From: Angiostrongylus vasorum
Taxonomy: Eukaryota; Nematoda; Chromadorea; Rhabditida; Metastrongylidae
Direction: 5' to 3'
Length of the DNA: 64,000 nucleotides
Assembly: GCA_018806985.1 (NCBI GenBank)
Contig: JADANN010000040.1
Span: forward strand, 156,001 to 220,000
Positions within the stretch are counted from its first letter, which is position 1. Each line of letters starts with the position of its first letter. A program made the position numbers and the translations under genes. Below are positions 3,957-64,000 of the stretch, in pieces. The notes under the pieces were generated by a model. The model was not told the DNA's origin. It made no database searches and saw only the letters and a program-made list of their open reading frames with translations.

Positions 3957-4331
3957 ATGCAACTACGCCTGTTGATCCTTCTGTGTTTCACCTCCAGGTC
4001 AGTCTCCCCATCGTTTTCTTACGCCCACCTAAATTTCATAGAGTCCCATATGATCTGCTGGATGAAGTCTCGTTTTCAGTTTTCCTTCAAGCGTTTAACA
4101 CCGTCGAATCCGGTGAGTTCTATAGTAACAGTAATGAGCATAGTACTAAGTAGAAAAACAGAAATTTGCGAACTAGAAGCAAAATTGAAACGGAATATTT
4201 CATGTAATTCAGCTATCGCCATGGATGGTCCTCGTCGAATACCAACTACGAAAGGTGTGCTGGAGCATTTTTCTGGTTTACGCAAAAAAATGTCTAAGGA
4301 CATAAATGAAACAACATTAGGAATAATATAA
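3957..4331 (+). CDS. Small secreted peptide, three exons, unknown family
   Basis: Exons are 3957-3997, 4042-4112 and 4213-4331 with GT-AG introns of 44 and 100 nt (phases 2 and 1). The predicted product is 76 residues. Exon 1 encodes MQLRLLILLCFTS, a compact signal-peptide core. Exon 2 encodes VPYDLLDEVSFSVFLQAF and a few more residues. Exon 3 is basic in the middle (DGPRRIP, LRKKMSKD), has one N-glycosylation sequon (NET) and stops at TAA. No cysteine follows the signal peptide, so it is not a disulfide-rich toxin-like peptide. I do not recognise the family. Support comes from the signal peptide, phase-consistent splice sites, a TATA box and retention in the duplicate at 18907. Possible distant relics lie at 28905-29557 and 38250-39125. 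The gene order suggests a short, single-promoter gene just upstream of SINE1. Confidence 0.6.
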   Translation: MQLRLLILLCFTSRSVSPSFSYAHLNFIESHMICWMKSRFQFSFKRLTPSNPVSSIVTVMSIVLSRKTEICELEAKLKRNISCNSAIAMDGPRRIPTTKGVLEHFSGLRKKMSKDINETTLGII

Positions 4332-4442
4332 TCACAATAATCATAATACGATGATGCTGAGATTTATGCAAAACTCCGGTCCGCAGGTGTACACCTTAGA
4401 GGGTCTAACGCATTCACCACTACGACATGGGATAGACCATAA
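4332..4442 (-). repeat. SINE1 fragment, inverted partner of 4443-4710
   Basis: Truncated minus-orientation copy: the block TTTATGCAAAACTCCGGTCC and the following element tail match the complement of SINE1. It abuts a plus-orientation copy and so forms a head-to-head inverted pair, also present at 19250-19616. Confidence 0.65.
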
Positions 4443-4710
4443 ATTACAGTGATTTATACTATAACTTTAGCCTAATTCGGTCCAATGCCGATTTCTACCC
4501 TCGACATTAATCGCGTTGATGGGTGATCGGTGATTGCACATATAACAGATGGCTGAGAGAAAGCCGAAACGAAAGACCGCATAGTGCACTGGTGAACGCG
4601 TCACACTGTGGCAAATTCGATCTCCAACGCAGACACTTCTGGTTTGGAATTTTGCAAATACCTCAGCATCACTGTGGTTATATTTCACAGCATACCTTGC
4701 AATGAAAAAA
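4443..4710 (+). repeat. SINE1, tRNA-like dispersed repeat
   Basis: Plus-orientation copy with leader, a tRNA-like A box region (GTGCACTGGTGAACGCG, diverged), a B box region (AAATTCGATCTCC) and the conserved tail TTTTGCAAATACCTCAGCAT. The family recurs at 25200, 25500, 30768, 31815, 33585, 44935 and 57390-58580. Confidence 0.75.
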
Positions 4711-5050
4711 GAATAGGCAGCAAATAAAAAGTGCTTACAGTACCAACAAGCCCAACTGAAACAACAGAAGGCTCCAGTACCGCTACACCACAGAGCCAGG
4801 GTACGCTTGAGTTTTTTGTTTCCCGCAATAATGAAGAAATGGCACAATAGTGTTTTATAGTCAATGTTAGTACAAATATCAGGCAGAAAAAAGAATAGAC
4901 AGCAGATAAAAAGTGCTTACAGTAGCAACAACGCCAACTGGAACGACGGAAGGCCCCAGTACCGCTGCACCAGAGCCAGGTACGCTTGAGTTCTTTGTTT
5001 CCGGCAATAATTAAGAAATGGCACAACAGTGTTTTATAGTCGATGTTAGT
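4711..5050. repeat. 180-bp tandem repeat, two units
   Basis: The unit begins GAATAGRCAGCARATAAAAA and recurs at 4711 and 4893 (182-bp spacing). It is derived from the sequence downstream of SINE1. Copy B of the segmental duplication has four units at 19617-20334. Confidence 0.85.
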
Positions 5051-5265
5051 AAAATATGATCATGTTTCAGCAAGTACTTTTAACTGAGCGCAGGCAGCAA
5101 TTCTGCTTTACTTTTTACATTGCTAAATCCCGTATTTGCCATTAATGACTAAAAGTTTAAATCACGTCCGACTTCCCATTAACCTCGGCACTGATCAAGT
5201 AATTATTTGTATTCTTGTTGAGCAAACACGAGGCGTTATTTTTGTTCCTTGTTCACGAACGGGCT

Positions 5266-5294
5266 GATGTTTCGGCGGATTTCACCTTCCTCAG
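5266..5294 (-). ncRNA. Hammerhead-like core, inverted 5' end of Penelope copy
   Basis: On the minus strand it reads CTGAGGA, a GG(T)G / CGCC stem, then GAAA. The stem has one G-U type substitution relative to the 3' copy at 6296. Confidence 0.45.
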
Positions 5295-6295
5295 AGCCTG
5301 GAAAGGCCGAAACCCAAGCAGTAAAAATAGCTTGGTTCATTACCTCTCCTCTCACCCCTCTCACACGAAGAGGGCGCTTGTAAGAAAAATGTTTCGAACA
5401 GCAACCAACGTGTGCACGGGAAGAGAGCAGAGAGAGGAGTCCCGGAACTTGGCGCGGCAAATAGCCATTTTTAATGGCTACGAAACTGTAGCTCGGGACA
5501 GGTGTAGAGGAAATCCTAGGCCTCCAAACGACAACTAAGGCGATAGAAAGGTCCCGTTTATCCTACCCTTCATCTGAAATGATGTAAGTGCAGCTGTATA
5601 AAACGCTGCTTAAAGAAGAGCGGATCTTGAGGATTCGGTAAACGTAGTTGAAATAACACCGAATAATCATGGGCGCCAGCTAGTTCGTAACCGCCTATAT
5701 GATCGTCTATGTGCAATCCAAAATTGCATAATTTGCCCTAATGGTAGAGACGGTGATTGCATGAGCTCGGGAACAGTTTATTTGATCTCCTGCAAGGCGT
5801 GCGGACACGACTAAATTGGCGAAACGGGAAGGCCACTCTATGTCCGCATAGAAGAACACCTAGCCGGTAAACGCAAACCAAATACCCCACTAGGCACGAT
5901 TAGGACCCAGAGACATAACGCGGAGGACTTTGAAGTACAGGTCACGATACTCGCACGAGAATCGCGAACACAAGCGCGCAGAACTCTCGAAGCGTTCTGG
6001 ATCAATTCCAGAAATCCGAAAATGAACCGCAGGGAAGAATGCCTCATTATCACACGTGATATTGGGCAATATATAAACCTATAATTCTGGTGGGAGGGCA
6101 CATTACGCTTCCATGTGAATTCTGTGTGGTTGGTCTCCAAGCGACATACTCGGTGGAAGACTCATAGAAAGCGGTGAGTGTGCAAAGAAGCTATTTCATG
6201 TTCAATGTGATTGAAATCTTGGTTCAGCGTTTTCTCTGTTTGGTTATGAAAGTGTTTGGGCGAATAGATTGCTGTCAACTTGACCTTTCCAAGCT

Positions 6296-6323
6296 CTGAG
6301 GAAGGCGAAATCCGCCGAAACGT
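6296..6323 (+). ncRNA. Hammerhead-like core, 3' end of Penelope copy
   Basis: CTGAGGA, GGCG / CGCC stem, GAAA, CGTC: all core positions of the hammerhead consensus that can be judged are intact. Confidence 0.5.
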
Positions 6324-6393
6324 CAGCTTGTTCGTGAATAAAGAATAAAAATAACACCTCGTGTTTGCTCAACAAGAATACGAATAATTACTA

Positions 6394-7250
6394 AAAGTTT
6401 AGGTCATCGCGAGATATGGGTTGGCGGATTTTCAGGTGTTTCCCACCTATCAGGGCTACTTTCATAACAATCTTCTATCTAAATAAAGGTTAAATCTACT
6501 GTGATTCTTTATCTCCAAATCTTTTACTCACATGCAAAGTTTTCAAGAAAGTTGCCTTAAGAATTTGCCAAAAACCGTCACCTGGCTTTCCAAAGTGGGA
6601 GAAAACGTACGCTGCTTAAAAATTATCTTCTGTTAGTTAGAAAAAACATTTGGACATAGTGATGGTCCACTGAACTTCCACAATCATTGATAGGCTAGGA
6701 TGCGAGGGCAGAACAAAGCAGAAGTAGCTGCACAAAAGATTATTCAAAAATACTATGAACACTAATTCAGCAAATTGAGAACTTAGTCTCTGCAAAAGTA
6801 CAATTTCATGGCAATGGGAAGAAGCTGAGCACATTATGGAAGTTCGGAGTGCGTATCTTCCGTTTTTGTAGCCTTACATTCACATAAGGAGTAGTTTTAA
6901 ACAACGAAGACTTTTCTTCCACCTATTTTAGGAATCAGTGAATGCATTAGATTTGTCTCATGATGTTAGTTTTTCTTCGCCAATTAACATAAGTGTCACT
7001 GCGACAGGAGGAATGTATTAGAACAACGTTATGTAACAATTAATTCGTTTTCAAAAACAGCTTGCTCAGTTCAGAATTCCACTTCACCGTAAGAAACCCT
7101 GTCAAAGAGTAAGTTAATCTATCCCAGAAAACGTCATTGCTCCTCAAAAAACAAAGCCTCAATCCCGTGAACTTACCACTAATCCACAGGTTCCGGCTTT
7201 CAGATGTCGTGAACAGCTGGGAATATCTTGTAATTCCTAAATAAAGAGAT
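6394..7250. other. Duplicated non-coding sequence
   Basis: Collinear with about 20420-21280 of copy B. Short ORFs on the minus strand (6637-6834, 7040-7321) have no recognisable domain, and their frames are not fully conserved in copy B. The first 60 bp resemble 8430-8490. Confidence 0.45.
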
Positions 7251-7254
7251 AACG

Positions 7255-7509: not shown

Positions 7510-8295
7510 CCCACGACCGGCATCCTATTAACCTCGGTATTGATCAAATTGTTCTCGATACTCTTATTGAACAAATGCGAGGTGTTACTTTATTCCTTAT
7601 TAGGTTAAATCTGACGTTTCGGCGGATTTCGCCTTCTTCAGAACTTGCAAGGGTATACTGATACGTAATTCACTACGTCAAACGCTTCAATAACTCATAA
7701 AGAAACAAAGAAATCTAAGTCGCAATCACACGATCAACAGCTTCTTGAAAAACGCACTATTTATTGCCTGCCTTTCACTAAGGAAGAACAGCTGATCAAC
7801 GTCGCTTATGGTCCATGAGTGCGTCACCCCACATCAAAAGTCGTGGCCAAGACAAAATCCCTTTTCTATTGCCCTTCCTTAGCGATGAAGTAAGTGTAGC
7901 TATAAAACGGAGCTTGAGAACGGCAGCCCAACACTTTCGTCATCAGTTAATTCGTAACCGCTCATGTGGTCGCCTATGTGAAACACAAAGTTAGATAATT
8001 TGCTCTTACGGCAAGGACAGTGATTGCATTAGTCCAGGTGCGATATACCTGATCTCTTGCAATATTTGCGGAGATGAATATACTGGCGAAATGGACAGAC
8101 CATTATGTACGTGTAGAAGAACATCTAGATGGCAAAAGAAAAACGAAACAAAGTATCCCTCTCAATACCTCTAAACCCCCTAAATACCTCAAGGCACATA
8201 TTAATGAAAAAAAGTACGAAGACAGTTTTCGCATATTTCAGGTAGTACGACGGAACAATACACCACTACACCAAGCACGCCAACACGTACGTTAA
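7510..8295 (+). mobile_element. Penelope-like element, 5' inverted end and GIY-YIG remnant
   Basis: Starts with the inverted terminal segment (ATTAACCTCGGTATTGATCA near 7526) carrying a minus-strand hammerhead-like core. It then encodes a degraded GIY-YIG region (about 8030-8295) with VRVEEHLDGKRKTKQS. It lacks the element's 3' half, which survives in the partner copy at 21525-22680. Confidence 0.75.
7613..7641 (-). ncRNA. Hammerhead-like core in inverted Penelope terminus
   Basis: On the minus strand it reads CTGAAGA, GGCG / CGCC stem, GAAA, CGTC. The identical motif is in copy B at 21640-21668. Confidence 0.45.
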
Positions 8296-9275
8296 AGTTC
8301 TTCATTGTTGTTACGAATGAGTAACTCACACAATAGTATCGACAACAGTACGAAATGTCTTAAAATGACACAATTTTATGAAAGCAAAAAGGAAATCAAA
8401 TTTTCACGCTATTAAGTTTTCAATTCGTCATTAATTACTATAAGTTTAGGTTATCGTAATCTATGGGTTGGAGGATTTTCGGGAGTCATCTGGTTTCCGA
8501 ACGTGTTTTCATAAGATTTCTTATGCACATATAAAAATTAAATTTGCTGAAGTTCTGCATTTCGAAAGCCTTCGTCTGGACTTAGAATTTGTGAGATCAC
8601 TTCTTCAAGAATCTGGTAGGAACGATTGTCTGCTATTGCAAAATGGCGAGCTGTGAACGTATCAGAAAAAAGTGTCTTGTGTGGTTTGTTAGCAAAAACT
8701 AACGGCCTTAGGGTGTTAATCTAAAACAACAAGGACCAACGATAAGCTGTTATGTGGTGGCAGAAGAACACAAAAATAACTTCATCAAATGATATTCACT
8801 AAAGCAAGCTTAAATTTTACGAGAGTTCAAAATCAAAATAATGAGAAAGTGCGCTGTACATTTTTGAAGTTCTCAGTGATCACTTGCTGCTTTTATGACC
8901 CCATATGATCACATTAGGACTGGTTTGGAGTTTTCAGATGAAATGAAAGTTTTTCTTTCCATTACTTCATGAATAAACGGGGACACTTCCAGGACAGACG
9001 TATTTATTTCGTAACGAAGGCGATGGGTCCTTTCAAGCAGTCAGTCCACCAAAATGTAGTGAGGAAATCGTTGGTTGCGTGTGATGGTAGTTTTGCCACG
9101 CAGGTCTTCCTAATCTGTAGCTATTCGCAAAACCTCAAACTTGAGGAATAAAACCTCTTACAAGCGCAATATTTACAGGACAATGGAACGTGATTCGAAA
9201 TGCATGTACAACAAATTGTAAAGCAAAGTCTTTCAGTGGGCAGTAGTAAAATAGTTAACAAACTAATGTAGAACA
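8296..9275. other. No gene recognised
   Basis: AT-rich. Only the block near 8430-8490 resembles another place (6394-6450). The ORFs at 8468 and 8969 have no supporting features. Confidence 0.4.
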
Positions 9276-18868: not shown

Positions 18869-18906
18869 TCCCGTATTTGAAAACTATTCAGCTGACGAAA
18901 CAGACA

Positions 18907-19236
18907 ATGCAACCACGCCTGTTGATCCTTCTGTGTTTCACCTCAGGTCAGTCTCCCCATCGTTTTCTTACGCCCACCTAAATTTCATAGAGTCCTATAT
19001 TATCTGCTGGATGAAGTCTCGTTTTCAGTTTTCCTTCAAGCGTTTAACACCGTCGAATCCGGTGAGTTCTATAGTAATAGTAATAAGGGTTGAAACGGAA
19101 TATTTCATGTAATTCAGCTATCGCCATGGATGGTCCTCGTCGAATACCAACTACGAAAGGTGTGCTGGAGCATTTTTCTGGTTTACGCAAAAAAATGTCT
19201 AAGGACATAAATGAAACAACAGTAGGAATAATATAA
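18907..19236 (+). pseudogene. Small secreted peptide, copy B, frameshifted at exon 1 end
   Basis: Exons 18907-18946, 18991-19061 and 19118-19236 correspond to 3957-4331. Exon 1 is 40 nt instead of 41: ACCTCAG|GTCAGT here against ACCTCCAG|GTCAGT in copy A. It therefore ends in phase 1 while exon 2 still needs phase 2. Intron 2 is also shorter (56 versus 100 nt). Exon 2 carries substitutions (P to L, D to Y). Either this copy is a pseudogene or it uses an alternative splice site that I could not find. Exon 3 is open, with one substitution near its end. Confidence 0.6.
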
Positions 19237-19249
19237 TCACAATAATCAT

Positions 19250-19616
19250 AATACGATGATGCTGAGATTTATGCAAAACTCCGGTCCGCAGGTGTACACC
19301 TTAGAGGGTCTAACGCATTCACCACTACGACATGGGATAGACCATAAATTACAGTGATTTATACTATAACTTTAGCCTAATTCTGCCCAATGCCGATTTC
19401 TACCCCCGACATTATTCGCGTTGATGGGTGATCGGTGATTGCACATATAACAGATGGCTGTGAGAAAGCCGAAACGAAAGACCCGCATAGTGCACTGGTG
19501 AACGCGTCACACTGTGGCAAATTCGATCTCCAACGCAGACACTTCTGGTTTGGAGTTTTCCAAATACCTCAGCATCACTGTGGTTATATTTCACAGCATA
19601 CTTTGCCATGAAAAAA
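19250..19616. repeat. SINE1 inverted pair, copy B
   Basis: Minus fragment (about 19250-19350) followed by a plus-orientation copy (about 19351-19616), the duplicate of 4332-4710. Confidence 0.7.
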
Positions 19617-20334
19617 GAATAGGCAGCAAATAAAAAGTGCTTACAGTATCAACAACGCCAACTGAAACAACAGAAGGCCCCAGTACCGCTACACCAGAGC
19701 CAGGTACGCTTGGGTTTTTTGTTTCCCGCAATAATGAAAAAATGACACAATAGTGTTTTATAGTCGATGTTAGTAGAAATATCAGGCAGAAAAAAGAATA
19801 GACAGCAGATAAAAAGTGCTTACAGTATCAACAACGCCAACTGAAACAACAGAAGGCCCCAGTACCGCTACACCAGAGCCAGGTACGCTTGGGTTTTTTG
19901 TTTCCCGCAATGATGAAAAAATGACACAATAGTGTTTTATAGTCGATGTTAGTAGAAATATCAGGCAGAAAAAAGAATAGACAGCAGATAAAAAGTGCTT
20001 ACAGTAACAACAACGCCAACTGGAACGACGGAAGGCCCCAGTACCGCTGCACCAGAGCCAGGTACGCTTGAGTTCTTTGTTTCCCGGCAATAATGAAGAA
20101 ATGGCACAATAGTGTTTTATAGTCAATGTTAGTACAAATATCAGGCAGAAAAAAAAGAATAGACAGCAGATAAAAAGTGCTTACAGTAGCAACAACGCCA
20201 ACTGGAACGACGGAAGGCCCCAGTACCGCTGCACCAGAGCCAGGTACGCTTGAGTTCTTTGTTTCCGGCAATAATTAAGAAATGGCACAATAGTGTTTTA
20301 TAGCCGATGTTAGTAGAAATATGTTTATGTTTCA
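19617..20334. repeat. 180-bp tandem repeat, four units
   Basis: Units begin at 19617, 19796, 19975 and 20157 (spacings 179, 179, 182). Units 1-2 share the GGGTTTTTTGTTTCC variant and units 3-4 the GAGTTCTTTGTTTCC variant, so amplification was partly by duplicating neighbouring units. Confidence 0.88.
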
Positions 20335-21284
20335 GCAAGTACTTTTAACTGAGCGTAGGCAGCAATTCTGCTTTACTTTTTACATTGCTAAATCTCGTAT
20401 TTGCCATTCATGACTAAATGTTTAGGTCATCGCAAGATATGGGTTGGCGGATTTTCAGGTGTTTTCCGTCTACCAGGGCTATTTTCATAATAATCTTCTA
20501 CCTAAATAAAGGTTGAATCCACTGTGATTCTTTATCCCCAAATCTTTTACTCACATGCAAAGTTTTCAAGGAAGATACTTTAAGAATTTGCCAAGAACGT
20601 CACCTGGCTTTTCAAAGTGGGGAGAAAACGTACGTTGCTTAAAAATTATTTTCTGTTAGTTGTTAGAAGAAACATTTGGACTTAGTGATGGTCCACTGAA
20701 CTTCCACAACCATTGATAGGGTAGGATGTGAGGGCAGAACAAAGCAGAAATAGCTGCACAAAAGATTATTCAAAGAGTGCTATGAACACTAATTCAGTAT
20801 ATTGAGAACTTGGCCTCTGCAAAAACACAATTTCATGGCAACGGGAAGAAGCTGAGCACATTATGGAAGTTCGGAGTGCGTATCTTCCGTTTTTGTAGCC
20901 TTACAATAACATAAGGAGTAGTTTTAAACAACGAAGACTTTTCTTCCACCTATTTTAGGAATCAGTGAATGCATTAGATTTGTCTCATGACGCTAGTTTT
21001 TCTTGGCCAATGAACATAAGTGTCACTGCGATAGGAGGAATGTATTTGAACTACGTCATATAACAATGAAATCGTTTTCGAAAACAGTTTGCTAAGTTTG
21101 GAATTCCATTTCACCATAAGGAACTCTTTTAAAGAGTAAGTTAGATATCCCAGAAAACATCGTTGTTCCTCAAAAGACAAAGCCTCAATCCTATGAACTT
21201 ACCACTAATCCACAGGTTCCAGCTTTCGGATGTCGTGAACAGCTGGGAATATCTTGTAATTCCTAAATAAAGAGATAACGTAAT

Positions 21285-21639: not shown

Positions 21640-21668
21640 GACGTTTCGGCGGATTTCGCCTTCTTCAG
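21640..21668 (-). ncRNA. Hammerhead-like core in inverted Penelope terminus
   Basis: Same as 7613-7641: CTGAAGA, GGCG / CGCC, GAAA, CGTC on the minus strand. Confidence 0.45.
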
Positions 21669-27279: not shown

Positions 27280-27784
27280 TCAGAAATTTATTTAAAATCT
27301 TCGTGGTGCCGGTTGTGAAAAAATTTTGCTTTGGTGGAATGAGTACGTAATCTGTTTGGATTACGACAGTATTTCACACCTAATGAGGTTGCATCCTTAG
27401 GTATTTGTGTTCATTTTTTGTATATGAATTTAAAGCCGTCTTGCTGAGGTATTTAGAATTTCCTTGCAAGATGAGTAGAAAAACTTTCTTACCGGTTGTA
27501 TCAGAAGTTCCACTCTCCGTGGTGGTACGTAGTCCACCTGAAGTGTTGGAAAATTATGCGTGTCGGTAGTACTGTTGACCATGCTTCACTAGTAAAATAT
27601 TCGGATTGCGGTAATTTGCATTCATGGATAACAATTTCACACCACGAAAATTCAAGTTTTACCCGATACATTAGTAGATCCTTCATTATCATTACCTTCC
27701 ATGCCTACATTTAAAATATGTTATGTTATGCAGAGTGGCATGTCATTGAAATTTGCAGTGTTTATCTTATAATATATCCCTTGA

Positions 27785-27930
27785 AGAAGTGGGTGCAGAC
27801 AAGCACGATGAAAGATCAGTCTGTGATGCTGAGCGCGACCCTTAGAGTTAAATCCGGTTTATTGCAACTTGGAGAACTAATACGGAGTTCTCGTTGCGTC
27901 CGCGAATCACGGTCGATGTGGTATTTGTTA
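27785..27930 (+). mobile_element. RTE relic shared with 34090-34245
   Basis: AAGCACGATGAAAGATCAGT and the following 100 bp align with the ORF2 C-terminal region of the RTE at 37706-37840. It is heavily degraded. Its presence in both P and Q dates it before that duplication. Confidence 0.5.
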
Positions 27931-28619
27931 GGATATTGTAAATAATAGTAACGATAACAGTAATAATGTTATTAACATCTGCGGCCGATCAGTCTTCGAC
28001 TGGAGGAGTTAGAGAGGTGTAAAGGACTTGTTTCTGGCAGATGGCAAGCGTGTAACAGGTAGAGCACAGACTCGATTGGAAATCTTCACTGAAACCCCGA
28101 GACAGAAGATGGTGATCTCCTACTCCCTCTCCCAAACAGGATCAACTAGACCGCTGAGTCGTGCAGCAAGGTGAAACAGTCTTCCTGAAATCCTCTCGAG
28201 TCGATCAGCGATCAAAGGCGAACAGGTGGAATATCAAACAAAGCCTTTTCGCTCTGAGACTGCTCTAATTTGCTGGGGCATTGAGGTAAGTTCAAAATAA
28301 TTCCTCGACATTGCTGGATACTTCTGGAAAAAGGTGTGGACGAACCCAAAACGAGTCATAAAAGGTCTACTATAGCGAAGTACATTTCATTTGTAGGAAC
28401 AAGTGTTTGGGTTTGCACTCTTCTGCTTTCTTAACAAATACTTCCGGGGCTCATTTCTTAAATAATCCCACTAGGCTGAAACTATGTATGATCTAAGCCC
28501 ACTAGCATTTATAAAACTAGTAGAACGAAAAAAATAAGGTTGACCAATTCACAAGCAAAGATTTTCAAATTTTTTTCCTCTGTCCCTTCCAATTTCTTAC
28601 ACCTATTGTTATTGTCTTA

Positions 28620-28875
28620 GGGGAGCGCGTGGCGCAGTGGGTAGAGGCGCCACTGCGACACACACATGGAACAGATCCATGCGCCCATGGCCCACCAAGC
28701 CCTTCATCCCTCCACTGTTAGCAAATTGGTACAAGACTTGCCCGAGAAGGTTAGCAGCAGTCATTGTAAAGATTAGATATACATTCAATCATCTCCTACG
28801 GTGATTAATTAAGTCGAATGCATGGCTCATCCCTCGAAGACTGATCAACGCCGAGAACTCTATCCTTTATTTTTT
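28620..28875 (+). repeat. SINE2 with well-preserved tRNA-like head
   Basis: Begins GGGGAGCGCGTGGCGCAGTG, a near-consensus tRNA 5' end and A box. The B box region is diverged (GGAACAGATCC). Then come CACCAAGCCCTTCATCCCTCC, AATTGGTACAAGACTTGCCC and GACTGATCAACGCCGAGAAC. Confidence 0.8.
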
Positions 28876-28904
28876 AGCGTTTATTGTTTCTGTCTTTAAC
28901 GTGA

Positions 28905-29557
28905 TCTCTTTACGTTTCAGCTTTTTTCGAACGTTTCACTGTTATCATAAATTTTGTTGAACTGACCATATTCGACTGTTTCGAGCACTTGAAGGAGAAC
29001 TGAAAATTGAAACTTTAATTGAATTTGTAAATGTGATGTGAACGAGAATTTTGATGATGAAAGGCACAAGAGACTTGCTGTTTATTTCTGCCAAATTAAA
29101 TAGTAAGCAGACAATTTTGGAAACTAACCCTTGACACTTCACTGCTTTATTGCAATGACTTACATTTTCTCTTCTTTTCTCCTGTTTTACTGAAGCATGA
29201 ATGTGTTTTCAGTAAACAGTAAGTAGGATAACCGATTTTGGTAGTGCTTGACTGGAACGAGATAAAGAAATCGGATAACTTACGCAAAGTGAGGCACAAG
29301 AAGATCGACAGGCGTTGTTGCAGTGAAGGCATCGCCAACTGGTGATGGGATGCATAGGTTTTTGCCATTTTTGTTCCGATTTATATATAGCGAAAATTAT
29401 TTCATGCATTTGTTACCTCCACATGAGTACAGGATTACAGTGTACAGCAATCCCTAACCGGAAACTGTAGAGCCACAAATAACAATAAGCCAAATATATT
29501 CAAATACCTATGCGCTTTTGCTCAGATAGTATGTAAATTTTGTTCAAGTTATATAGG
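28905..29557 (-). pseudogene. Relic of a short secreted-peptide gene, minus strand
   Basis: Reading the minus strand: a TATA motif (29557-29547), then 40 nt later a hydrophobic stretch NIFGLLLFVALQF without a preceding ATG. Further down, a segment ending in a strong donor (TTGC|GTAAGT near 29279) follows a Cys-rich frame. Finally TCAGTTCTCCTTCAAGTG ... GTCGAATATG|GTCAG (29002-28967) closely resembles exon 2 and its donor in the gene at 3957 (TCAGTTTTCCTTCAAGCG ... GTCGAATCCG|GTGAG). The partner copy at 38250-39125 keeps the hydrophobic stretch and this block. No complete gene can be built, so I call it a relic. The link to the 3957 family is an inference from one short block. Confidence 0.35.
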
Positions 29558-38249: not shown

Positions 38250-39125
38250 CTAGCCGTACTCGACGGTTTTGAGCTCCTGAAGGAGAATTGAAATTTTTTT
38301 TCGTATTTCTAAGTACAGAATAGAGTTTTCCCGACTAACGCCCAACATAAAGTCTCCGTTCTGTAAACTACCATTTGCTAGCAAAAAGTGTAGGAAGACA
38401 GTTCTGTCCGTTAAAATAGACGACAGGAAACAAAATGGCACCTATAGGCGTCTTGCGATCCAGTGCCGCAAAACCTTTCTGCGTCACTTTTCGTGAAAGT
38501 CTTAAAAAAGAGACGCAACAAGATGAACAGACGGCTTTACATTGACGCACCGTGAATTGGTGATCGGCTGTGTAAGCTTCGTCAATCTTATTGTAATTAA
38601 GTTGGATACTTGGATACTTGAACAGCCCGTCCTCACTGATTGCGCTTGCCTCGGCATATTCTCCATTTTTCTGAGTTTTGCTGGTTTAGCCATTGTGCTT
38701 CCCTGGTGTACTAAGGTCAGCCTAGCCAAAGGCTGCTCCAAGTCATCACCAACACAGACAGTAGCAGCCCTTATGGATCAGAGGAATGTTTGCCACAGAG
38801 GGAGATTTGCCACCATGCGACTTTGATATGAGGACGGTGGTGGATCCTGGTATTGGTTTACTCTTAGCTGGGCTTCCTGATGGAAACGCCGGGCTCCCTC
38901 TCAGCATGGGAGACCCTGCCGTGTGGATAAATCTCCTTGCTGAACATTGCAGCCCGACACCCTGGAACATCTCCTAACCACCATGATACGGTAAACCGTC
39001 GGGCGGTGTTGTGATTTATGCAGCAAAAACCATTTAATGCATTGTTACGTCCAGATAATAGTAATTTCCTACCTGGAAATTGTAAAACCACGAATAACAG
39101 TGAGCCAAATATATTCAAATAACGA
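38250..39125 (-). pseudogene. Relic partner of 28905-29557, split by R3
   Basis: The minus strand keeps the hydrophobic stretch NIFGSLLFVVLQFP followed by a donor-like G|GTAGGA (39118-39060) and the block ILLQELKTVEYG (38293-38256), which matches LLQVLETVEYG in copy P and, at DNA level, exon 2 of the gene at 3957. No ATG precedes the hydrophobic stretch. An R3 repeat lies between the two parts. Confidence 0.3.
38600..39000 (+). repeat. R3 dispersed repeat, full-length
   Basis: TTGGATACTTGAACAGCCCG start, then AGTTTTGCTGGTTTAGCCAT, GCAGCCCTTATGGATCAGAG, GAGATTTGCCACCATGCGAC and GGAACATCTCCTAACCACCA. The ORFs at 38542-38977 are shadows. Confidence 0.8.
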
Positions 39126-39520
39126 TGTGCTTTTTCCTTAGAAACTAAGTAAATTTTGCTCGAGTGATTTTGGATGTATACTCGCTACCGATAGCTGTTG
39201 CAATGTTTAAACCTTCTAGGCTTTATGGAGAGTGATCCCTCCTACCGAAGAGTGAAGCTCGTGTTCTTGCACTTTTAATTACAATGTTTGGTCAAAGTAA
39301 GACCCTCGACAGTGTCAGCAATCCAAAGAAGGGCATCGCCCCCTTCGAAAAGCGGTGATTTACTTGAAGCGAGCCATTGTCGACAAGGATTTTGGTCATC
39401 TTTACCGGCTCACGCTTGACGTGTGGAGATTTGTTTCGCAGCAGAGAACCTTAGCGTGCCTAGGAAGCATTATACTGTAGTTTAAAGAAAAAAGGAGTGA
39501 TGCAACTAGCAATGATGGTT

Positions 39521-41205
39521 GCTCTTACTGAGCACTGACGGTGTCTTCAGATCGAGAAGTAGTGATATCTACATTAGATATCTTCACAGTGGTCCTACTC
39601 TAGCGAAGTGGCGAAGACATGAGCAATGGTGGAAGTGGAAGAATGAATCATGTAGACTTACTTCCGCCTGTCCCAATGTCTTCGAAGTGTTTTTCTGGAA
39701 GCATATTCTAAACTCTACTTTACTAATGTTCTGAGCGTTTTCATCTAGGCGGTTTGCGTGATGTTCGATATCTTGATTCCAACGGAAGTGCATTATGTTT
39801 CAGAATTCTGCAAGCCTTATAGATATGAGTTATTGCTTCATATAACCCAATATGTGCATCAAGAGCCCTCAAATTCACCTCATGTATCCTTCAAAACACG
39901 CCATAAAGACGTTTTTTTTCAGTTTATGGCATACTTGATGGATGGCTCTAACAGAAACCTTGAGCTAGGTAGTAACAAGGCTATGTGTTACGTCCAGTGG
40001 TAGTGCACATGTTTACACGAACTTTTCACTAAACTTTATTGGACCAGTGTCTCAACGTCATCGCCTTCTTCGGAACCGCAGTGGTTCGAGATGAGTGCTC
40101 TTCTCGGTTAGATCATGCGACCTAATCTTCGTAGTGATATCGGGTTTGATCGAATGGAAGGGACACCGTGAGATTGGATTGATATCAATAGTCGAGGTCT
40201 TTTCGATTAACTCAACGAGAAACATGACCGAACCTTTTGTGAGAAAAATGGACAAAAGTTCGAGTGCTTACAGCCCCTCTTTCATTTAAAAATACATAAA
40301 GGTGAGCTTAAGTATCGTAAAATGTTTGGCGACTTTGAAGGACAACTTTAGTAATGATCTCTTCTCTTACTACTTATATTACAAAGGACCCACCAAGATG
40401 ACACCAGAAAATTCTCTATTCTCCCTGACAGAATAGATTGGTATCTGGCTGGATTTGCGTGCTTGACTTGAACGAAAACCATCACACCTTCCATACAGAA
40501 GCCACTGTTTTTTACTGATTTTAGTAACAATTAGCCACGAGCAGTATTCCACCGCTTCCATAGAAGCGCACAGTTTTTACAAGTTAGTTTTCATAGTGCC
40601 TAGGAGTAGAAGCTGAGCTAAGATAATTTGTTCGAATCTATTATGAATCACCTACTTTGTACCCCCAAATTACCTTGCCTTGATCATTTGTTGCATGCAC
40701 ACAAAATAGTTTGGTCACTCGTAAGCATACCCATATACGCAAGTACGAATCATTAAGCGTATAGAGAAGGTTCTACTGATTGTGCTGAATCGCACCTGAT
40801 CGATTACCGCAAAAATCCCTGCCTTTCTGGAAAAATCCTCGCTGCAATGGCAAGGCAGCAAAATTATTTACCATCTAAATTGTCCAGAAGAAGATCTTAA
40901 TACGTTTCAACGATACCACGCTCACGTTTTCTGAAGAAAAGCACGACAAATTTTGACTCTGATCTCTGATTTATAACTAGATGTGCAGTGGCACATGAGC
41001 ACTGTGTGATTGGAAAATGAGGAAGTAGAAACACTACAACAGCTACTGACAACAGAAACATGAAATGTCAACAGTGCGAAATTTACATAGTACCTGCTCA
41101 CAAGCACTTCGGTATTTGAATAGATTTGACTTGCCGCTGTTTGTTGTTTCACAGTTTCCAGATTTAACTGGTAATGAGATGGTTTTGCTGAATGTGTGAG
41201 GCGAT
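39521..41205. other. No gene recognised; one terminus-like motif
   Basis: ORFs at 39519 and 39758 lack recognisable features. Near 40035-40080 the complement reads CCGAAGAAGGCGATGACGTT followed by ACTGGTCCAATAAAG, which resembles a retroelement 3' end but lacks the hammerhead GAAA, so I leave it unassigned. Confidence 0.35.
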
Positions 41206-41210
41206 CATTG

Positions 41211-41220
41211 CTATATAAGT
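41211..41220 (+). promoter_or_regulatory. TATA box of the micro-exon gene
   Basis: CTATATAAGT, about 45 nt upstream of the ATG at 41263, the same layout as the secreted-peptide gene at 3911. Confidence 0.6.
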
Positions 41221-41262: not shown

Positions 41263-44200
41263 ATGCATAAGCCACTGGTCTTCGTCTTCAGTGTTACAAT
41301 AGGTCAGTTAATTGATTTTTGTTCTTCCATAGTTCAACAAAAATTAGCCCGACTCTCTCGTCGTTTGAAAGAAAAAACATCATTCATTAATATATTAGCA
41401 CATTTAAGTCGAGCGAAAAAGTTTGCTTTATTATGAAAAACTCCTTGTGATGAAGCAGTGGGTTTTTCCAAAACCAGTTTCTTAAATTTTCTATTTGGTA
41501 AGTTTAGAATCTTCTCGTTTCAAGTCGTAACGAACGCTTCCACTCTAAATTTACGACATAACATGACTTTTCAGCTCTTCTTCAACTACTCAGTACCGTT
41601 CAGTCTGGTCAGTTTTGTAATTGTTTGAATTGTTAGGCGCTAAGAACTTTTGTTTTTTTTTCGAATGTATCTTATTTACAAAATAAATACAAACGCTTCC
41701 TTGCAAGGTATTCACTGCCATTGAAAATCTGGTTTGAAAAATAGAACAGGGAGGGAAGCCACCAGCTTATTCAAAGCCCATAGTTTTCCAAAGAAGAGCC
41801 AGATTTTCAGAGAACACGAGAACACGAATATGCACAATGGAACCTTTATACTTTTGATTAAAGTAAAGAGCTAAAATTTGGGCTGAAAAAACAGCGTAAG
41901 AAGGAGTAAATATGATACAGTTAAGGTCCAAATTATCTCTGTTCGGTATGAAATCCAAAACAAGGAAATATAGTAAGCTCTTTAGTCGCAAAAACAATAA
42001 AAATTTTAAAGTCTAATATTCACATATCTCAGATGAACCCACTACAAGCAGTAGTAGCAACGGAACTACGGAGATAACTGGTACGATGAGTTTTTTGTAA
42101 TCTGCTTGGTGTAAAACTACAAACTGCTAATGTAGAAATCACTCAATAAGGATAAAGGATAAAGTTCTCGGCGTTGATTAATCCCTGAGGGATGCGCCAT
42201 CCATACGACTTTACTAATAAGTATCGTTGGAGGTGATTGAATTCATATCTGGCTTTGACAATGACTCTTGCTGGCCTACCGATGTATCGATCCAGTGCTG
42301 CTATCCTCCTAGACAAGTCTGGTACCAATTTGACGACCTTGGAGGGATGGAAGGCTTGGTGGAGCCACGGGCGCCAGGTTCGATTCCACGTGTGTGCCGC
42401 AGTGGCGCCTCCAACCACTGCGCGACACACGAAAGCACTTATATTCGTATATTTGCCAAAGACAGAAAAAAATAATTCCTTTGTATTTCAGCAGAAACAA
42501 CAACAAGCGAAAGTAGCAATGGAACAACTGAGATTACCGGTACGAGACCGTTTTTTGTCTGTTAGGCACACAGTATGAATAATATGTTACAACAATATAC
42601 ATTGATTTCAACACGTATCTTAGCAGAGGCTTGTGGATGATGAACTCTGATCTCAATGAAATTCCCTTTCAGTAATTAGTTATCAAGTTAAAAACTAGCA
42701 AGGCTTACTTGTAATATTTGTTGTTCTGTTTAATCCGTACCTCACCTAGCGAAATTTGTGTGGTATGTGGCCTGTGAAATTTCACATTTGTAATTCATAG
42801 AAAACAGGCTATCCAGCGCACTTACTGGTCTATGGAAAAGGATTGCTGTAGGAAACGCCAAGATATTTCTTCTGTATTTAAACGCTGGTGTCTAGTCTTT
42901 AGAGACACCTTTCGGCTACTGTAGAAAATCATGGCACTTACCAACTCTTTATTGTTACTGTAATCTTCTATTATTTCTTTAAACACTCTCTCAAAACGTA
43001 CAATTCAAAATCCAAGAATCTGGAACTCTTGCATTCAAAACCTCTTGCATACAGGTCACATTTTCACCAAAAAATCTGGACTTCCTACCAAAAGATGCAA
43101 AAGTTTGCGGAACACTTTTGAAAGAATTCAAGCCGATGTAAGTCAACACCATCCCAGATCTGTCTCTCTTATATAATTTTTTTTGCAATAGCACGGCAAA
43201 CGAAATGGTGAGTGCTCCCACCCCCTTCTTTAGGTGAAGATTGATTGAATGTTTTCGTTTCCCAAACAGTTGCTGTATGCTGTGCAAATTTCTACTTAAA
43301 GCAATGATCAAAGCACATTTTCATCTCTGGAACAGATTCCCATAAAACTTACCTTTCTTGCGTTTATCTTATCGTCCCCTTCATTACCGCCTTCTCACTG
43401 TTAGCCATACCTTAAATAACTAGTTCTGGGTTTACAAACAAAAGCTCTTAATCCACCACAGATTCTCTAACATTGAAGCCCTAGGATTCATGAACAACAG
43501 TGTTCGTCCAGTCACCACTGACTTCACCCTCATTATCCTTCTCCTCAGACACCGATTTCCGATTTCGCTCAGACTTGCTGAAAGATAGCGTGGAAATTTG
43601 CGCATATCTCTCTGCATCTTCAGCTTCCTCTTCGTCATTTTCCACAAGGAGTCTATTGCTGTTAACTTCTTAAGCTGCTGTCATGATGAAAGGCCAAATC
43701 CTAATTTTCCAGCGCTAAAATCCATTAAACGTGATAAAATCAGTACTTCACTACAATGTAAGGAAAACCAAATAGAGGAGCGATAGCACGGAAAAGTTTA
43801 AAAAGCGCTTTGACATTTAAAGTTCAAAGCCGAGACAAAATTTCGGAATTTTTTAGATCGCTTGAATTTTGAGCAATTCTGTAGTTTAAGAGGCATTGTA
43901 CAAAAAATTCTGCGTATACCCACTACCATAGATCAGATTCCCCTCCTAGTGTGCCTCTCAACATCTCAGCTTCCCTCAGTGATTGGGAAATTACTGGTTC
44001 TTATGGACAACAGTCATCGCTTTTTAAAATCCTAATCGTGCCAAACTTAGAGCCATTTTAAGTTGCTGTGCTCAATCACGTTTCTCGCATGGGATAGGCT
44101 GGTGCAAGAAAAGACAGCAAAATTGTCCCATTACAGTGATAATGGTAGGACCACAATGATGCAAACTAATGACACAATAGCTGGTAGCAATGTCGTTAGT

Positions 44201-47200
44201 TGCTGCACGAGTTTTCATAAGTCCTCAAGCAATGAAAAGTTAGACTTGCACCGCAACAAATAGAAATTCGATTCTATCGCCAACGTATTTTAATACATTA
44301 ATATTTAAATTAAAATTAATAGAAACTTTACAAGAATAAAATTCATAGCAACAAGAATTAAAAAAGGATGATTCTGACCCTTTTAGGTGAAACTACAACG
44401 AGCGGTGAATGCAATAGGACTACAGGAATAACTGGTACAGTAGAGTTTTTGCGGTCTCTTTGATGTAAAGCTGCAAAGTGCAAACATATCAGAAGTTTTA
44501 CGTCTTAAATACAACTAAAAACGCCTTTTTATATTAAGCCGAAACAACTACGAACAGTACTAGCAATGGAACCACTGAGATTGCCGGTAGGGTTCTTTTT
44601 ACTCAGTCGCTTTGATATGAAATCGCGTAGTAAAAAGTTCAAAACAGGCTTCATTTTTCAATTAAAGGCATAAAAAAGCCTCTCATAATTCCTTGAAAGC
44701 ATTACAAGAGGTAGTAGCAATGGAACTACTCAGATTAGCCGTAAGGTTTGTTTTGAAGTTTTCTTAGGTATGAAGGAGTACAAAGGAATGAATGAACATG
44801 GGATGATAATGCACAAAATAAGAGCACTAAGCAAAGTGGAATATACCACCTACAAGGGGAAAAAGTTGGGGTAAAATATTGGCCGAGAGGAAAGAAAGAC
44901 AGGAGCGTCGATTGGTAAAGTGGATAACACGTGCGCACCTGAAAAGGTGATCGAGGATTCGAAGCCGGCCTGAAGTCTGAGTTTTGCAAATATCGCAACA
45001 TCATTGTTGTCGTGCTTCACATTATACCTGTCATGAAAAAAGAATAGGCAGCAAAGGCTCAGTGTAAATGCCAGTCCTTTAAGGAAAATAAAAGTGTGGT
45101 TCTCGTATATTTTAGCAGAAACCACCATCAATGGTGAGAGCGATGGAGCCACCGAAATAACTAGTAAGAAACACTTCTTTGGCTGATTTGGTATAAAAAG
45201 GGTGCAATAGAAATTAGATAGGTGATTTATATTTGAAAGACCTAAAGATATGATTTTTGCGCATTTCAAGTGAAGCCACTGCAAGTGCTGGTAACAGTGA
45301 ACAACTGGGATTAGCGGTGACATATTTTTGCAGTTCTGCTGTGCGAGACTAGAGTTTATTACAATTTCTACATTTGTAAAGGTAGTAATGACAAATACCA
45401 CTTCCATGTTCCAGGTGAAACCACGACAGGTTGGAGCAATGGAACAACCGAAATAACAGGTACTGTAGATTCCCTTGAAGCTAGTTTGAAATTAAGCTGC
45501 GAAATGACAATTGAATATAAGTTTCATTTATGTAACGACAACATAAATTCAAATAGTTCAGGTGAAACCACTACGGGCGGTTGGAGCAACGGAACTGCCA
45601 GTATAACTGGTACAGGAAATTTCTTCATAACTGATTCAGTATCACACTGTGGAATGACAACTAAATAGAAATTTCATACTTGTAAAGGCAAAAAAAACTT
45701 TTGTAAAAAAACATGGTTTTCACATATTTCAGGTGAAACCACGGCAACCGATTGGAGCAATGGAACTACGGAGATAACCGGTACGGTAAATTCCTTCATC
45801 ATTGATTTGGTACGAAGCTGTAGAATGACAACTTAATAGAAGTTTCATACTTTTAAAGACAACAAAAGTTGGTAAGAAAGGATGGTTCCAACGTACTTCA
45901 GGTGAAACCACAATAGGAAGTTGGAACAACGGAACTACTGAAATAACTAGCACGGTGGATTCCCTCAAAGTTAATTTCATATTAAACTGTGAAGTGGTAA
46001 TTGAATATAAGCCTCGCGTTTGTAAAGATAACGTATATCCCGGCAAATGTCTGGTTTTCAAATATATCAGGTGAAACCACGATAGCCGGTTGGAGCAATG
46101 GAACTACTGAAATAACCAATACGCTAGATTCCCTTAAAGTTAATTTGACATTGAACTGTCAGATGACAATCGAATATAAACCTCATGTCTGCAAAGATAA
46201 CGTATTTCCCGTAAAAAAGTATGGTTTTCAAATATTTCAGGTGAAACCACGACAGCCGGGTTGGAGCAATGGAACTACCGACATAACCGGTACATAAATT
46301 CCTTTATTATCATGTCATTATGAAGCTGTAGAAATATAACTTGCTAGAAGCTTAATATTTGCAAAGACAACAAAAATTTGCAAAAGAAAACATGTAGTTT
46401 TTAAATTATTTCAGGTGAAACCACCTGGAGCAGTAATAGCAATGGAACTACCGAAATTACTGGTATAATAACTTTTTTTGCAGTCGACTTTGCATAAAAA
46501 AAAGGATAAAGCTGTGGGCATTGATCAATCCCTGAGGAATGCGCCATGCATTCGACTTCATTAGAGCATCGTTGGAGATGATTAAAGGCATATCTGGCTT
46601 TTACAATGACTTGTGGTGGTCACCGATGTAACGAGCCAGTGGTGCTCACCTCCCAGACAAGTCTGGTAGCAATTTGCCGACCCCGGAGGATGGAAGGCTT
46701 AGTGGGCCACGGACACGGGGATAGATTCCATGTGTGTGTTGCATAGTGCATAATAATAGTTGAGCACATATTCAACTTTCGAAAATATAATAATGGTAAT
46801 TAAGACTTCCATAATTTTCAGGTGAAACCACTGTAAGCGGTACTAGCAGTGGAACAACCGAGATAACAGGTACGACATATTTCTTCCTGGTTGGATGAGC
46901 GCGGCAGAATCAAAATAGGTATTTTTAAAAAATTTATCTCTCAGAACTTATTTTAGGTGAGACGACTAGAAGCAGCGGAGGGAATCAAACTACCGAGAAA
47001 GCCGGTATGACTAAGAATCTTATGGACGGTTCGGTATAGAAATTCGAAATGAGTGGACTTATTAAGCCTATTTCGCAAAGATTACTAGTAAAACATTTCG
47101 AATTTCGAAGGTCCGGTGATAGGTGTGGTTGCTATCAAAATGAACGTTTGTCCATGTCGTGTGCTCGAATTTCGCCTACTTTCCCATATTCATGGGTAGG

Positions 47201-47610
47201 TTGCCGAACATTCGCTGAGGGACGTTGGGACTCTTTGTTGAAGGGCTCTCCGAACCTATTTCCCAGCCATTTGATAGCAACCATTTCGCCATAGTGTGAG
47301 TAGCATGCCTATATGCTATGGTAACTTGTAGCGCGGTGGTTAGAGCTGCTCTTCAAAAACAGATTCAATCGCTCGATCGATGGTTGGATCCCGCAAGTTA
47401 GGCTCACTAAGCCTTCCATAGTAAGAGCCTTTCGACCAATTTCATCTCAATACCTGGGCAGACAGCCAATCCCAGTATTTATGCATCGAAGATTTGCTAC
47501 TTATAGTTTTTATTGCTATGACAATCTGTTCAATGTGTAAAAAGTAATTCTTTATAAGAAATTTAGGAAGCGGCAACGAAATCGGCGGCGAATTCCTGCG
47601 TGTTGTTTGA
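41263..47610 (+). CDS. Secreted mucin-like micro-exon gene
   Basis: Exons: 41263-41302, 41575-41607, 42033-42080, 42492-42539, 44397-44444, 44539-44586, 45116-45163, 45415-45459, 45562-45609, 45733-45780, 46415-46462, 46822-46869, 46957-47004 and 47567-47610. All junctions are phase 1 with AG acceptors and GT donors. The joined model is 642 nt, 213 residues. Exons 1-2 encode a signal peptide (MHKPLVFVFSVTI, then ALLQLLSTVQS). Eleven 45- or 48-nt exons each encode one variant of GETTTSGSSNGTTEIT. Nine of the eleven carry an N-glycosylation sequon (NGT, NRT or NQT), and Thr/Ser richness suggests O-glycosylation. The last exon encodes GSGNEIGGEFLRVV and stop, 35 nt before AATAAA. Because every exon is a multiple of three in the same phase, any can be skipped without a frameshift. 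The layout recalls parasite micro-exon genes; no known family was recognised. Five further degenerate exon copies lie in the array. Confidence 0.77.
42143..42450 (-). repeat. SINE2 in intron of the micro-exon gene
   Basis: Near full-length, minus orientation. The head near 42430-42370 reads on the minus strand GTCGCGCAGTGGTTGGAGGC and GTGGAATCGAACCTGGCGCC, good A and B box candidates. Confidence 0.85.
43481..43668 (-). CDS. Possible acidic C-terminal exon, minus strand
   Basis: Within a long intron of the micro-exon gene, the minus strand has about 60 open codons ending TAG at 43481-43483. The composition is charged: LVENDEEEAEDAERYAQ, then SKSERNRKSVSEEKDNEG, then SGDWTNTVVHES. It looks coding, but the acceptor is weak (CTTAAG) and no upstream exon was found. 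It could be an exon of an antisense gene or a processed fragment. Confidence 0.3.
44693..44740 (+). pseudogene. Degenerate 48-nt micro-exon, acceptor lost
   Basis: Aligns over 48 nt with the repeat exons (GGTAGTAGCAATGGAACTAC core) and keeps a donor (C|GTAAGG), but the acceptor AG is replaced by CC (ATTCCTTGAAAG). Confidence 0.6.
44935..45055 (+). repeat. SINE1 fragment in intron
   Basis: GTTTTGCAAATATCGCAACATC and GAAAAAAGAATAGGCAGCAAA match the SINE1 tail and the beginning of the 180-bp unit. A GATTCGAAGCC B-box-like motif precedes it. Confidence 0.6.
45270..45316 (+). pseudogene. Degenerate micro-exon, acceptor and frame lost
   Basis: GTGAAGCCACTGCAAGTGCT ... GGGATTAGCG|GTGACA. The acceptor CAG has become CAA and the exon is 47 nt, so inclusion would shift the frame. 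Confidence 0.6.
45902..45949 (+). pseudogene. Micro-exon with GC donor
   Basis: Acceptor TTCAG and 48 open nt (ETTIGSWNNGTTEIT), but the donor is GCACGG instead of GTACGG. It may be a tolerated GC-AG intron or a dead exon. Confidence 0.5.
46071..46118 (+). pseudogene. Micro-exon with AT in place of GT donor
   Basis: Acceptor TATCAG and 48 open nt (ETTIAGWSNGTTEIT), but the donor reads ATACGC, so normal splicing should fail. Confidence 0.55.
46241..46289 (+). pseudogene. Micro-exon with 1-nt insertion
   Basis: Acceptor TTTCAG and donor GTACAT are present, but the exon is 49 nt (CCGGGTTGG where the others have CCGGTTGG), so inclusion would frameshift the message. Confidence 0.6.
46490..46755 (-). 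repeat. SINE2 in intron of the micro-exon gene
   Basis: Minus-orientation: GGCATTGATCAATCCCTGAG, GAATGCGCCATGCATTCGAC, CATATCTGGCTTTTACAATG and the complement of the head near 46700-46745. Confidence 0.8.
47325..47490 (+). repeat. SINE2 head fragment
   Basis: TGTAGCGCGGTGGTTAGAGC (A box) and GGTTGGATCCCGCAAG (B-box-like), then GGCTCACTAAGCCTTCCATA. Confidence 0.6.
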
Positions 47611-47644
47611 ACGTCAGATCGAAATGATGAGCCATTTTGGCGGA

Positions 47645-47650
47645 AATAAA
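47645..47650 (+). terminator. Polyadenylation signal of the micro-exon gene
   Basis: AATAAA, 35 nt after the TGA at 47608-47610. Confidence 0.55.
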
Positions 47651-63909: not shown

Positions 63910-63940
<31 letters not shown>

Positions 63941-64000
63941 TGTATGTATGTATGTATGTATGTATGTATGTATGTATGTATGTATGTATGTATGTATGTA
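63287..64000. repeat. (ATGT)n tetranucleotide array running off the window
   Basis: At least 714 bp of ATGT repeat with one visible irregularity, an extra A near 63940 that shifts the register. The 217-codon MYVC open frame across it is an artefact of a 12-bp period without stop codons. Confidence 0.97.

Follow-up and report, generated by a model that had tools for sequence, protein, structure and literature searches.

How should a stretch of nematode DNA be read in which units of 45 or 48 nt, each set between AG and GT, recur again and again? The question arises in a window of 64,000 nt from Angiostrongylus vasorum (the whole stretch that was analysed, positions 156,001 to 220,000 of contig JADANN010000040.1 in assembly GCA_018806985.1; coordinates below count from its first letter), where a sequence-only reading had proposed a micro-exon gene for a secreted, sequon-rich repeat protein. 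In our reading, to which we give a probability of about 0.85, this locus (41263-47650; gene C below) codes for a protein by way of micro-exons and belongs to a nematode family of genes for small secreted proteins, in which it has undergone the greatest expansion.

Layout of gene C and selection on its modules

All the elements that had been read at the two ends of the gene are present, namely a TATA box, an ATG, leader exons of 40 and 33 nt, a 44-nt end exon bearing the stop, and an AATAAA (Table 1). Between them, at 42033-47004, lies an array of 16 module copies. When a module exon is called intact if it is 45 or 48 nt long, preceded by AG, followed by GT and free of stops in phase 1, 11 of the 16 qualify (ten of 48 nt and one of 45 nt), which confirms the eleven phase-1 exons originally described. 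Leader, 11 modules and end exon, spliced together, form an open frame of 642 nt, or 213 codons and a stop, and the remaining frames are interrupted by 9 and 24 stops; the 13 predicted introns span 87-1847 nt. The predicted protein is 42% serine plus threonine, with a single cysteine in its mature part. Its 10 N-glycosylation sequons are spread over nine of the 11 intact module exons, as the sequence-only reading had stated, and the claim of a sequon-rich product also holds, since 5.6 would be expected from composition; a count of 10 was reached in 88 of 10000 composition shuffles.

The way in which the module copies differ from one another argues for a coding array. Mean identity over the 55 pairs of intact exons is 0.70, falling to 0.54 over 60 nt of upstream flank and 0.56 over the same length downstream, against a baseline of 0.47-0.48 for random segments; when the recent tandem block is set aside, the remaining eight copies (28 pairs) give 0.68 for the exon and 0.54 and 0.55 for the flanks. 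Changes between copies are distributed over the three codon positions as 0.25, 0.23 and 0.49. The ratio of the proportions of nonsynonymous and synonymous differences (pN/pS), calculated from ten of the 11 intact exons with the 45-nt exon omitted to avoid gaps, is 0.39 (95% column bootstrap 0.23-0.60; 0 of 2000 column permutations as low), and in the other two frames it is 1.24 and 0.95. The eight dispersed copies by themselves give 0.34, again with 0 of 2000 permutations as low. Within the module, the frame codons (ETT and NGTTEI) have a pN/pS of 0.19, and the five-residue middle, at 0.83, is under little constraint. The exons of gene C are coding: they are conserved as far as their splice sites and differ mostly at silent sites, and this fall in identity beyond the splice sites, together with a silent excess specific to one frame, bears out the coding micro-exon gene that had been proposed.

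Repeats that merely mimic exons, whether non-coding satellite or transposon, would be a very improbable source of such a pattern. It is true that 45548-46424 of the array is a tandem repeat of period 169, and that the array introns hold repeats related to others in the window. Nevertheless, conservation drops past the splice sites, the silent excess is specific to the frame, and the array core is confined to the locus, its pattern having 11 matches there and 4 elsewhere in 280 Mb of genome, as compared with 5 for a reversed control. A search of the genome with the spliced gene C protein for a retrocopy gave 10 matches of 20-23 residues among 20 candidates scored; none ran across a join, and all 10 were confined to single exons of the gene C array.

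Table 1. Positions of gene C, its parts and its relatives within the window
Feature	Position	Strand	Description
Upstream block	41079..41159	+	alignable with the 5' side of gene D (29540-29460) and with the third copy at 39068-39212 (minus strand)
Gene C TATA box (TATATAA)	41212..41218	+	ATG 51 nt further on
Gene C exon 1	41263..41302	+	40 nt, starts with ATG; first half of leader (MHKPLVFVFSVTI)
Gene C exon 2	41575..41607	+	33 nt, second half of leader (ALLQLLSTVQS); predicted cleavage at exon end
Micro-exon 1	42033..42080	+	48 nt, DEPTTSSSSNGTTEIT
Micro-exon 2	42492..42539	+	48 nt, AETTTSESSNGTTEIT
Micro-exon 3	44387..44434	+	48 nt, GETTTSGECNRTTGIT
Micro-exon 4	44539..44586	+	48 nt, AETTTNSTSNGTTEIA
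Degenerate module copy	44692..44743	+	acceptor lost; bounds approximate
Micro-exon 5	45116..45163	+	48 nt, AETTINGESDGATEIT, without sequon
Degenerate module copy	45271..45316	+	46 nt, not a multiple of three; out of frame
Micro-exon 6	45415..45459	+	45 nt, [G/S]ETTTGWSNGTTEIT
Micro-exon 7	45562..45609	+	48 nt, GETTTGGWSNGTASIT; second in-frame GT at 39 nt
Micro-exon 8	45733..45780	+	48 nt, GETTATDWSNGTTEIT
Module copy with GC donor instead of GT	45902..45949	+	counted as degenerate; may be dead or spliced via the GC donor
Degenerate module copy	46071..46118	+	without donor
Degenerate module copy	46241..46289	+	49 nt, out of frame
Micro-exon 9	46415..46462	+	48 nt, GETTWSSNSNGTTEIT
Micro-exon 10	46822..46869	+	48 nt, GETTVSGTSSGTTEIT, without sequon
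Micro-exon 11	46957..47004	+	48 nt, GETTRSSGGNQTTEKA
Gene C terminal exon	47567..47610	+	44 nt, TGA at 47608-47610; homology to the 65-nt terminal exon of the family uncertain
Gene C AATAAA	47645..47650	+	poly(A) signal
Gene A	3957..6467	+	exons 3957-3997, 4080-4112, 4213-4254, 4741-4800, 4923-4979, terminal 6403-6467
A2	8242..8514	+	45-nt module exon 8242-8286 (by eye), 65-nt terminal exon 8450-8514
Gene B	18907..20490	+	exons 18907-18946, 19029-19061, 19118-19159, 19647-19703, 19826-19882, 20005-20061, 20187-20243, 20426-20490
Gene D (incomplete)	27493..29332	-	exon 1 29332-29284 (49 nt), exon 2 28999-28967 (33 nt), module 27537-27493
E	38253..38287	-	relic of exon 2, altered donor
Third copy of upstream block	39068..39212	-	no coding exon recognised beside it

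A family with a common leader

Gene C does not stand alone, although the sequence-only reading had missed its relatives. Relatives A, A2, B and D and a relic, E, lie in the same window, and two more genes, F and G, on contig C375. The family build is a leader of 40 and 33 nt, a variable number of phase-1 module exons (42-60 nt, longer in F and G) and a terminal exon. Leader exons measure 40 and 33 nt in B, C, F and G, 49 and 33 nt in D, and 41 and 33 nt in A, where exon 1 is one base off the family length and the frame is broken as read. A TATA box lies within 110 nt of the ATG in A, B, C and D, and none does in F and G.

The leader of gene C belongs to this family, and the split, signal-like leader that had been read there is indeed hydrophobic and in frame across exons 1 and 2; it has 24 residues, with small residues at -3/-1 (VQS). 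The -3/-1 rule is the pattern for signal peptide cleavage, and it is fitted by the leader end T-[VA]-[QE]-S of B, C, F and G (TVEY in D). Cleavage is accordingly predicted at the exon 2/3 junction, after T-V-Q-S in gene C, in which case the mature protein would be built wholly from module and terminal exons. Purifying selection acts on the 40+33-nt leader: across B, C, F and G its pN/pS is 0.46, with 3 of 1000 permutations as low, and the other frames give 0.87 and 1.60.

Two scans of 264 kb of the same contig set these genes against their surroundings. Leader-like pairs of 40 and 33 nt numbered 14 on the plus strand and 16 on the minus strand. Ranked by hydrophobicity, the plus-strand pairs were headed by gene B (18907), with gene C second, and among the 28 of the 30 pairs listed only B and C had a TATA box; the other two pairs were minus-strand ones of low hydrophobicity. 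Exon 2 of gene D turned up in one minus-strand pair, where the scan had coupled it with a different ATG. The scan for repeated units, made on both strands (AG-exon-GT units of at least 36 nt in at least three similar copies; 2,500 N included in the 264 kb), returned the gene C array with 11 units, the gene B array with 4 and an uninterrupted Gly-rich repeat, as well as three 3-copy clusters on the strand opposite to the B and C arrays. The uninterrupted repeat, at G000:C40:107727-108060, has a 36-nt unit that encodes Gly/Tyr-rich repeats of the GGYNPYGG type, and has no micro-exons.

Genome-wide, an exon 2 pattern made from A/B, C and D matched nine places (control 1): A, B, C and D exactly, E at three mismatches, two places on C375 at one mismatch, and two further places at three mismatches (C150, C429). 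The pattern had been drawn up without the C375 places, and each of them turned out to hold a gene built in this way, F and G, which supports the family. Each has a 40-nt exon 1, a 33-nt exon 2, two 48-nt phase-1 exons and no array, a longer, His-containing exon 5 (87 nt in F and 81 nt in G) and a 65-nt terminal exon; their exon 1 sequences are MHHRLLILLCFAS (F) and MHQRLLIFLFFTS (G), to be compared with MQPRLLILLCFTS in B. Plain DNA searches with the array, the 5' end of gene C and the 5' end of gene A matched this contig only, and the C375 genes were reached only by short exon patterns. The leader-exon pattern is thus a concrete search route, having found two genes where DNA searches with the array and the C and A 5' ends failed. 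We rejected the module repeat of gene A as a family probe: it matched 4 places on this contig and gave 27 short matches elsewhere, 26 of which involve its initial ~50 bases, as a dispersed element would. Candidate module arrays near F and G were likewise set aside, these being three clusters of two copies each, of which two coincide in position, at places inside a repeat that also occurs in the window.

The 65-nt terminal exon is common to A, A2, B, F and G, with an AATAAA 13-14 nt past the stop in A, B, F and G; for A2 none was found within 200 nt of the stop. A pattern drawn from these five matched them exactly and two other places at two mismatches (C174, C355; control 0), and an exon 1 pattern from B, F and G matched those three and, at three mismatches, A (control 0). 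The exact matches of both patterns arise by construction, and their use lies in bounding the family in the genome. A 65-nt terminal exon was sought for C and D and not found, the end exon of gene C being a different one of 44 nt. It resembles the terminal exon of B, which only 4 of 1000 random sites equal, and that of A weakly (42 of 1000).

Among the relatives, A and B form a segmental duplication (93.7% identity over 2.1 kb). The blocks that carry them, 2967-5057 / 17922-19961 and 6387-8159 / 20410-22190, are 93-94% identical, and in the gene A copy ~1.2 kb of other sequence separates the last module exon from the terminal exon. Exons 1-3 of A and B show 1 substitution and 1 gap column per 115 aligned bases, and the sequence outside them 6 substitutions and 45 gap columns per 290 bases, a difference that by itself is no sign of constraint on substitutions. 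Gene B is built of 40, 33, 42, four times 57 and 65 nt, with an open frame of 408 nt and its AATAAA 14 nt past the stop. The expanded module is a 57-nt unit rich in T, P and E in gene B (4 copies) and a 48-nt unit in gene C (16 copies). No recognisable 5' part was found for A2. In gene D, exon 1 was chosen by eye and the module exon is of 45 nt (GGLRTTTESGTSDTT). The upstream block of gene C is 76.5% identical over 81 nt to 29540-29460 beside gene D in a self-comparison of the window; a genome-wide DNA search with the gene D 5' flank found only D and the 39-kb copy and missed the gene C block, which indicates limited sensitivity. By eye, the predicted relatives B and F have no sequon and G has one (NTT); the sequon is a trait of the gene C module rather than of the family.

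A repeat of ~240 bp occupies 42154-42396 and 46501-46738 in introns of gene C, 28629-28870 on the opposite strand near gene D, and 9307-9554, and relatives of it also adjoin F and G.

Growth of the array, splicing and alternative readings

According to the mechanism that we suggest, transcription from the TATA promoter would be followed by splicing of the 13 introns, exons 1 and 2 would supply a leader cleaved at the exon 2/3 junction, and the mature protein would be assembled from small exons. Each module exon, in phase 1 at both ends, would encode one module of 15 or 16 residues with the frame GETT....NGTTEIT and a free middle. Such phase-neutral exon-plus-intron units can be duplicated or lost without damage to the frame; the array has in this way grown to 16 copies, and five of these have decayed since then. 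We predict a secreted, Ser/Thr-rich product with N-glycosylation sequons at a rate of about one per module; we infer, that is, that gene C is transcribed and that its protein is secreted and glycosylated. Growth by duplication of exon-plus-intron units is visible over 45562-46289, where the copies at 45562, 45733, 45902, 46071 and 46241 start 169-171 nt apart. Exon 4 of gene F (C375:1562596-1562643) has a GC donor (AG/GCAAGT), which suggests a GC-AG intron in this family, and the gene C copy at 45902, which also has a GC donor, might still be spliced.

Whether such a gene yields one product or many is a separate matter. A duplicated exon must be symmetric to keep the frame, and symmetry alone is therefore no argument for exon skipping. 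We put forward splice variants of different length from gene C only tentatively, with the odds leaning somewhat against them. That the exons are genuine and constitutively joined, giving a fixed, mucin-like repeat glycoprotein without notable variants in which symmetry is a trace of duplication, comes close to an even chance: symmetry follows from duplication, the five copies at 45562-46241 are exon-plus-intron repeats, and good splice sites are kept in the intact exons, yet the frame requires the degenerate copies to be skipped, so that splicing would already jump units, and the predicted introns differ widely in length. We regard as rather unlikely the broader proposal that nematodes evolved, independently of flatworms, a micro-exon system in which combinatorial splicing of a single locus releases many secreted variants; that proposal, with its shared secretion leader, partly shared promoter block, gene-specific phase-neutral modules, and conserved module frame around a varying core, is doubtful as a whole.

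Several results weigh against our reading of gene C. Five of its 16 module copies are degenerate (44692, 45271, 45902, 46071, 46241), and the exon 1 pattern from B, F and G failed genome-wide to match exon 1 of gene C, as it did that of gene D. The end exon of gene C bears no resemblance to those of A2, F and G (equalled by 636, 239 and 388 of 1000 random sites), and the 65-nt terminal exon itself has a chance-like pN/pS of 0.81 (347 of 1000), or 0.71 when A is left out (117 of 1000). Between F and G, exons 1-4 give a pN/pS of 0.61, which is indistinguishable from chance (188 of 1000 permutations). Finally, word-sharing searches turned up no homologous protein, either for gene C (E<=0.01, the 7,995 best candidates scored) or for an alignment of the family (E<=1, the 7,997 best). 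The database does hold strongylid proteins, but searches by shared words miss unannotated genes, and their silence is weak evidence of absence. No Pfam family matched gene C, and PDB gave no match by sequence to gene F; hits to New_glue (4e-4, in one of four family-alignment rows) and SelP_N (0.041, gene F) were ascribed to composition.

The damaged copies and the matchless protein searches, together with the 41-nt exon 1 of gene A, the incompleteness of D and the relic state of E, would also suit an array that once coded and is now decaying after loss of expression. We consider this improbable, because the 11 intact exons, the leader, the TATA box and the poly(A) signal leave a complete open frame, and silent changes dominate even in the eight dispersed copies, although the latter speaks of past rather than present selection. 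A protein-coding micro-exon gene remains our preferred reading of the locus.

Comparison with known systems and other features of the genome

Micro-exon genes of similar build have been described in flatworms, and published accounts, drawn on here in part, differ in how they delimit them. One defines a micro-exon as shorter than 70 nt and divisible by three, and the gene as having at least seven exons, of which at least half are micro-exons, with a run of at least four (PMC7653826). Gene C, with 14 exons and 12 consecutive micro-exons (33 nt, then 45 or 48 nt), falls within this working definition, as does gene B with 8 exons and 6 consecutive micro-exons; F and G (6 exons each) and D (3 exons found) lie outside it. 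A stricter description, in which ~80% of the coding region is in symmetric exons of 6-36 bp (PMC5825161), does not cover gene C, whose modules are 45-48 nt and of whose exons only exon 2 (33 nt) is in that range; 87% of its coding region is in short exons divisible by three. Elsewhere micro-exons of 3-81 bp are given (PMC10526429). Micro-exon genes are further marked by a secreted or membrane-exposed product and by protein variants arising through alternative splicing; the hydrophobic leader of gene C would suit the first trait, and the second is in its case a hypothesis. In the parts of these sources that we used, schistosome and tapeworm micro-exon genes resemble the present family, for which a signal peptide and secretion are predicted, in their secreted products with an N-terminal signal peptide, their predominance of short exons divisible by three, their clusters from tandem duplication, their difficult annotation and their rapid change (PMC7653826, PMC5825161, PMC10526429, PMC4350168). 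They differ in belonging to another phylum and, by the same stricter account, in exon size, most nematode modules being 42-60 nt as opposed to 6-36 bp (PMC5825161); moreover, the modules of B and C repeat one another, and no sequence similarity was found.

Descent of the family from the flatworm genes deserves next to no credence. The style of gene appears to be the same (a signal peptide, symmetric small exons, a secreted and changing product), but the protein searches found nothing at their respective thresholds, the module exons measure 42-60 nt (81-87 in exon 5 of F and G) as against 6-36, and the FL..F......W motif that the portion of the source consulted gives for the schistosome type (PMC10526429) is absent, by eye, after the signal peptide. 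The titles and abstract openings listed in searches of open-access papers reported no nematode micro-exon genes of such a build, and a prior report is possible, as subscription papers fall mostly outside that coverage; in what was covered, micro-exon appears in one paper merely as a mapping option (PMC4054779), and another states that helminths were not found to show antigenic variation of the kind seen in single-cell parasites (PMC4413821). Gene C works like a micro-exon gene and agrees with one published definition; its descent from flatworm genes is unsupported. If the same build does occur in a nematode without detectable similarity, worms would have evolved the design on more than one occasion, and it may go unseen elsewhere because gene finders overlook such exons.

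Other systems offer partial likenesses. Mucin-like surface and secreted proteins of nematodes have Ser/Thr-rich repeats and are expected to be glycosylated; gene C shares the Ser/Thr-rich repeats and the expected glycosylation, and differs in having one repeat per small exon and no Pfam match. Davis et al., in 1988, reportedly described tandemly repeated 81-base exons in Schistosoma mansoni; compared by title, these are alike in being tandem exons that encode repeats, with a unit of 81 rather than 48 bases. The bicycle proteins of aphids are named for their paired Cys-Tyr-Cys motifs. Compared by description, gene C differs from them in phylum and in the one cysteine of its mature protein. In the part of the source consulted, bicycle genes are similar in having numerous short internal exons whose first base is at codon position 2, in encoding putative effectors, and in keeping gene structure better than sequence (PMC9168663).

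The origin of the DNA in a nematode, also part of the sequence-only reading, is upheld by two further observations, tandem SL1-like RNA genes and the strongylid worms that make up the named matches among the 120 listed for a retrotransposon fragment in the window. The RNA genes form a tandem cluster at G000:C462:1836620-1849736 with at least 19 members, below the Rfam SL1 cut-off (50 candidates scored); in the one gene inspected the 22-nt leader GGTTTAATTACCCAAGTTTGAG, which we take to be the nematode SL1 sequence, is intact. The retrotransposon fragment, at 37290-37835, is closest to Angiostrongylus cantonensis (82%) and then to other strongylids (best 120 of 1403 matches). Copies of a reverse-transcriptase element lie at 14306-17225 and 34759-38145 (RVT_1 below cut-off), and the right end of the window, 63287-64000, holds 178 copies of ATGT.

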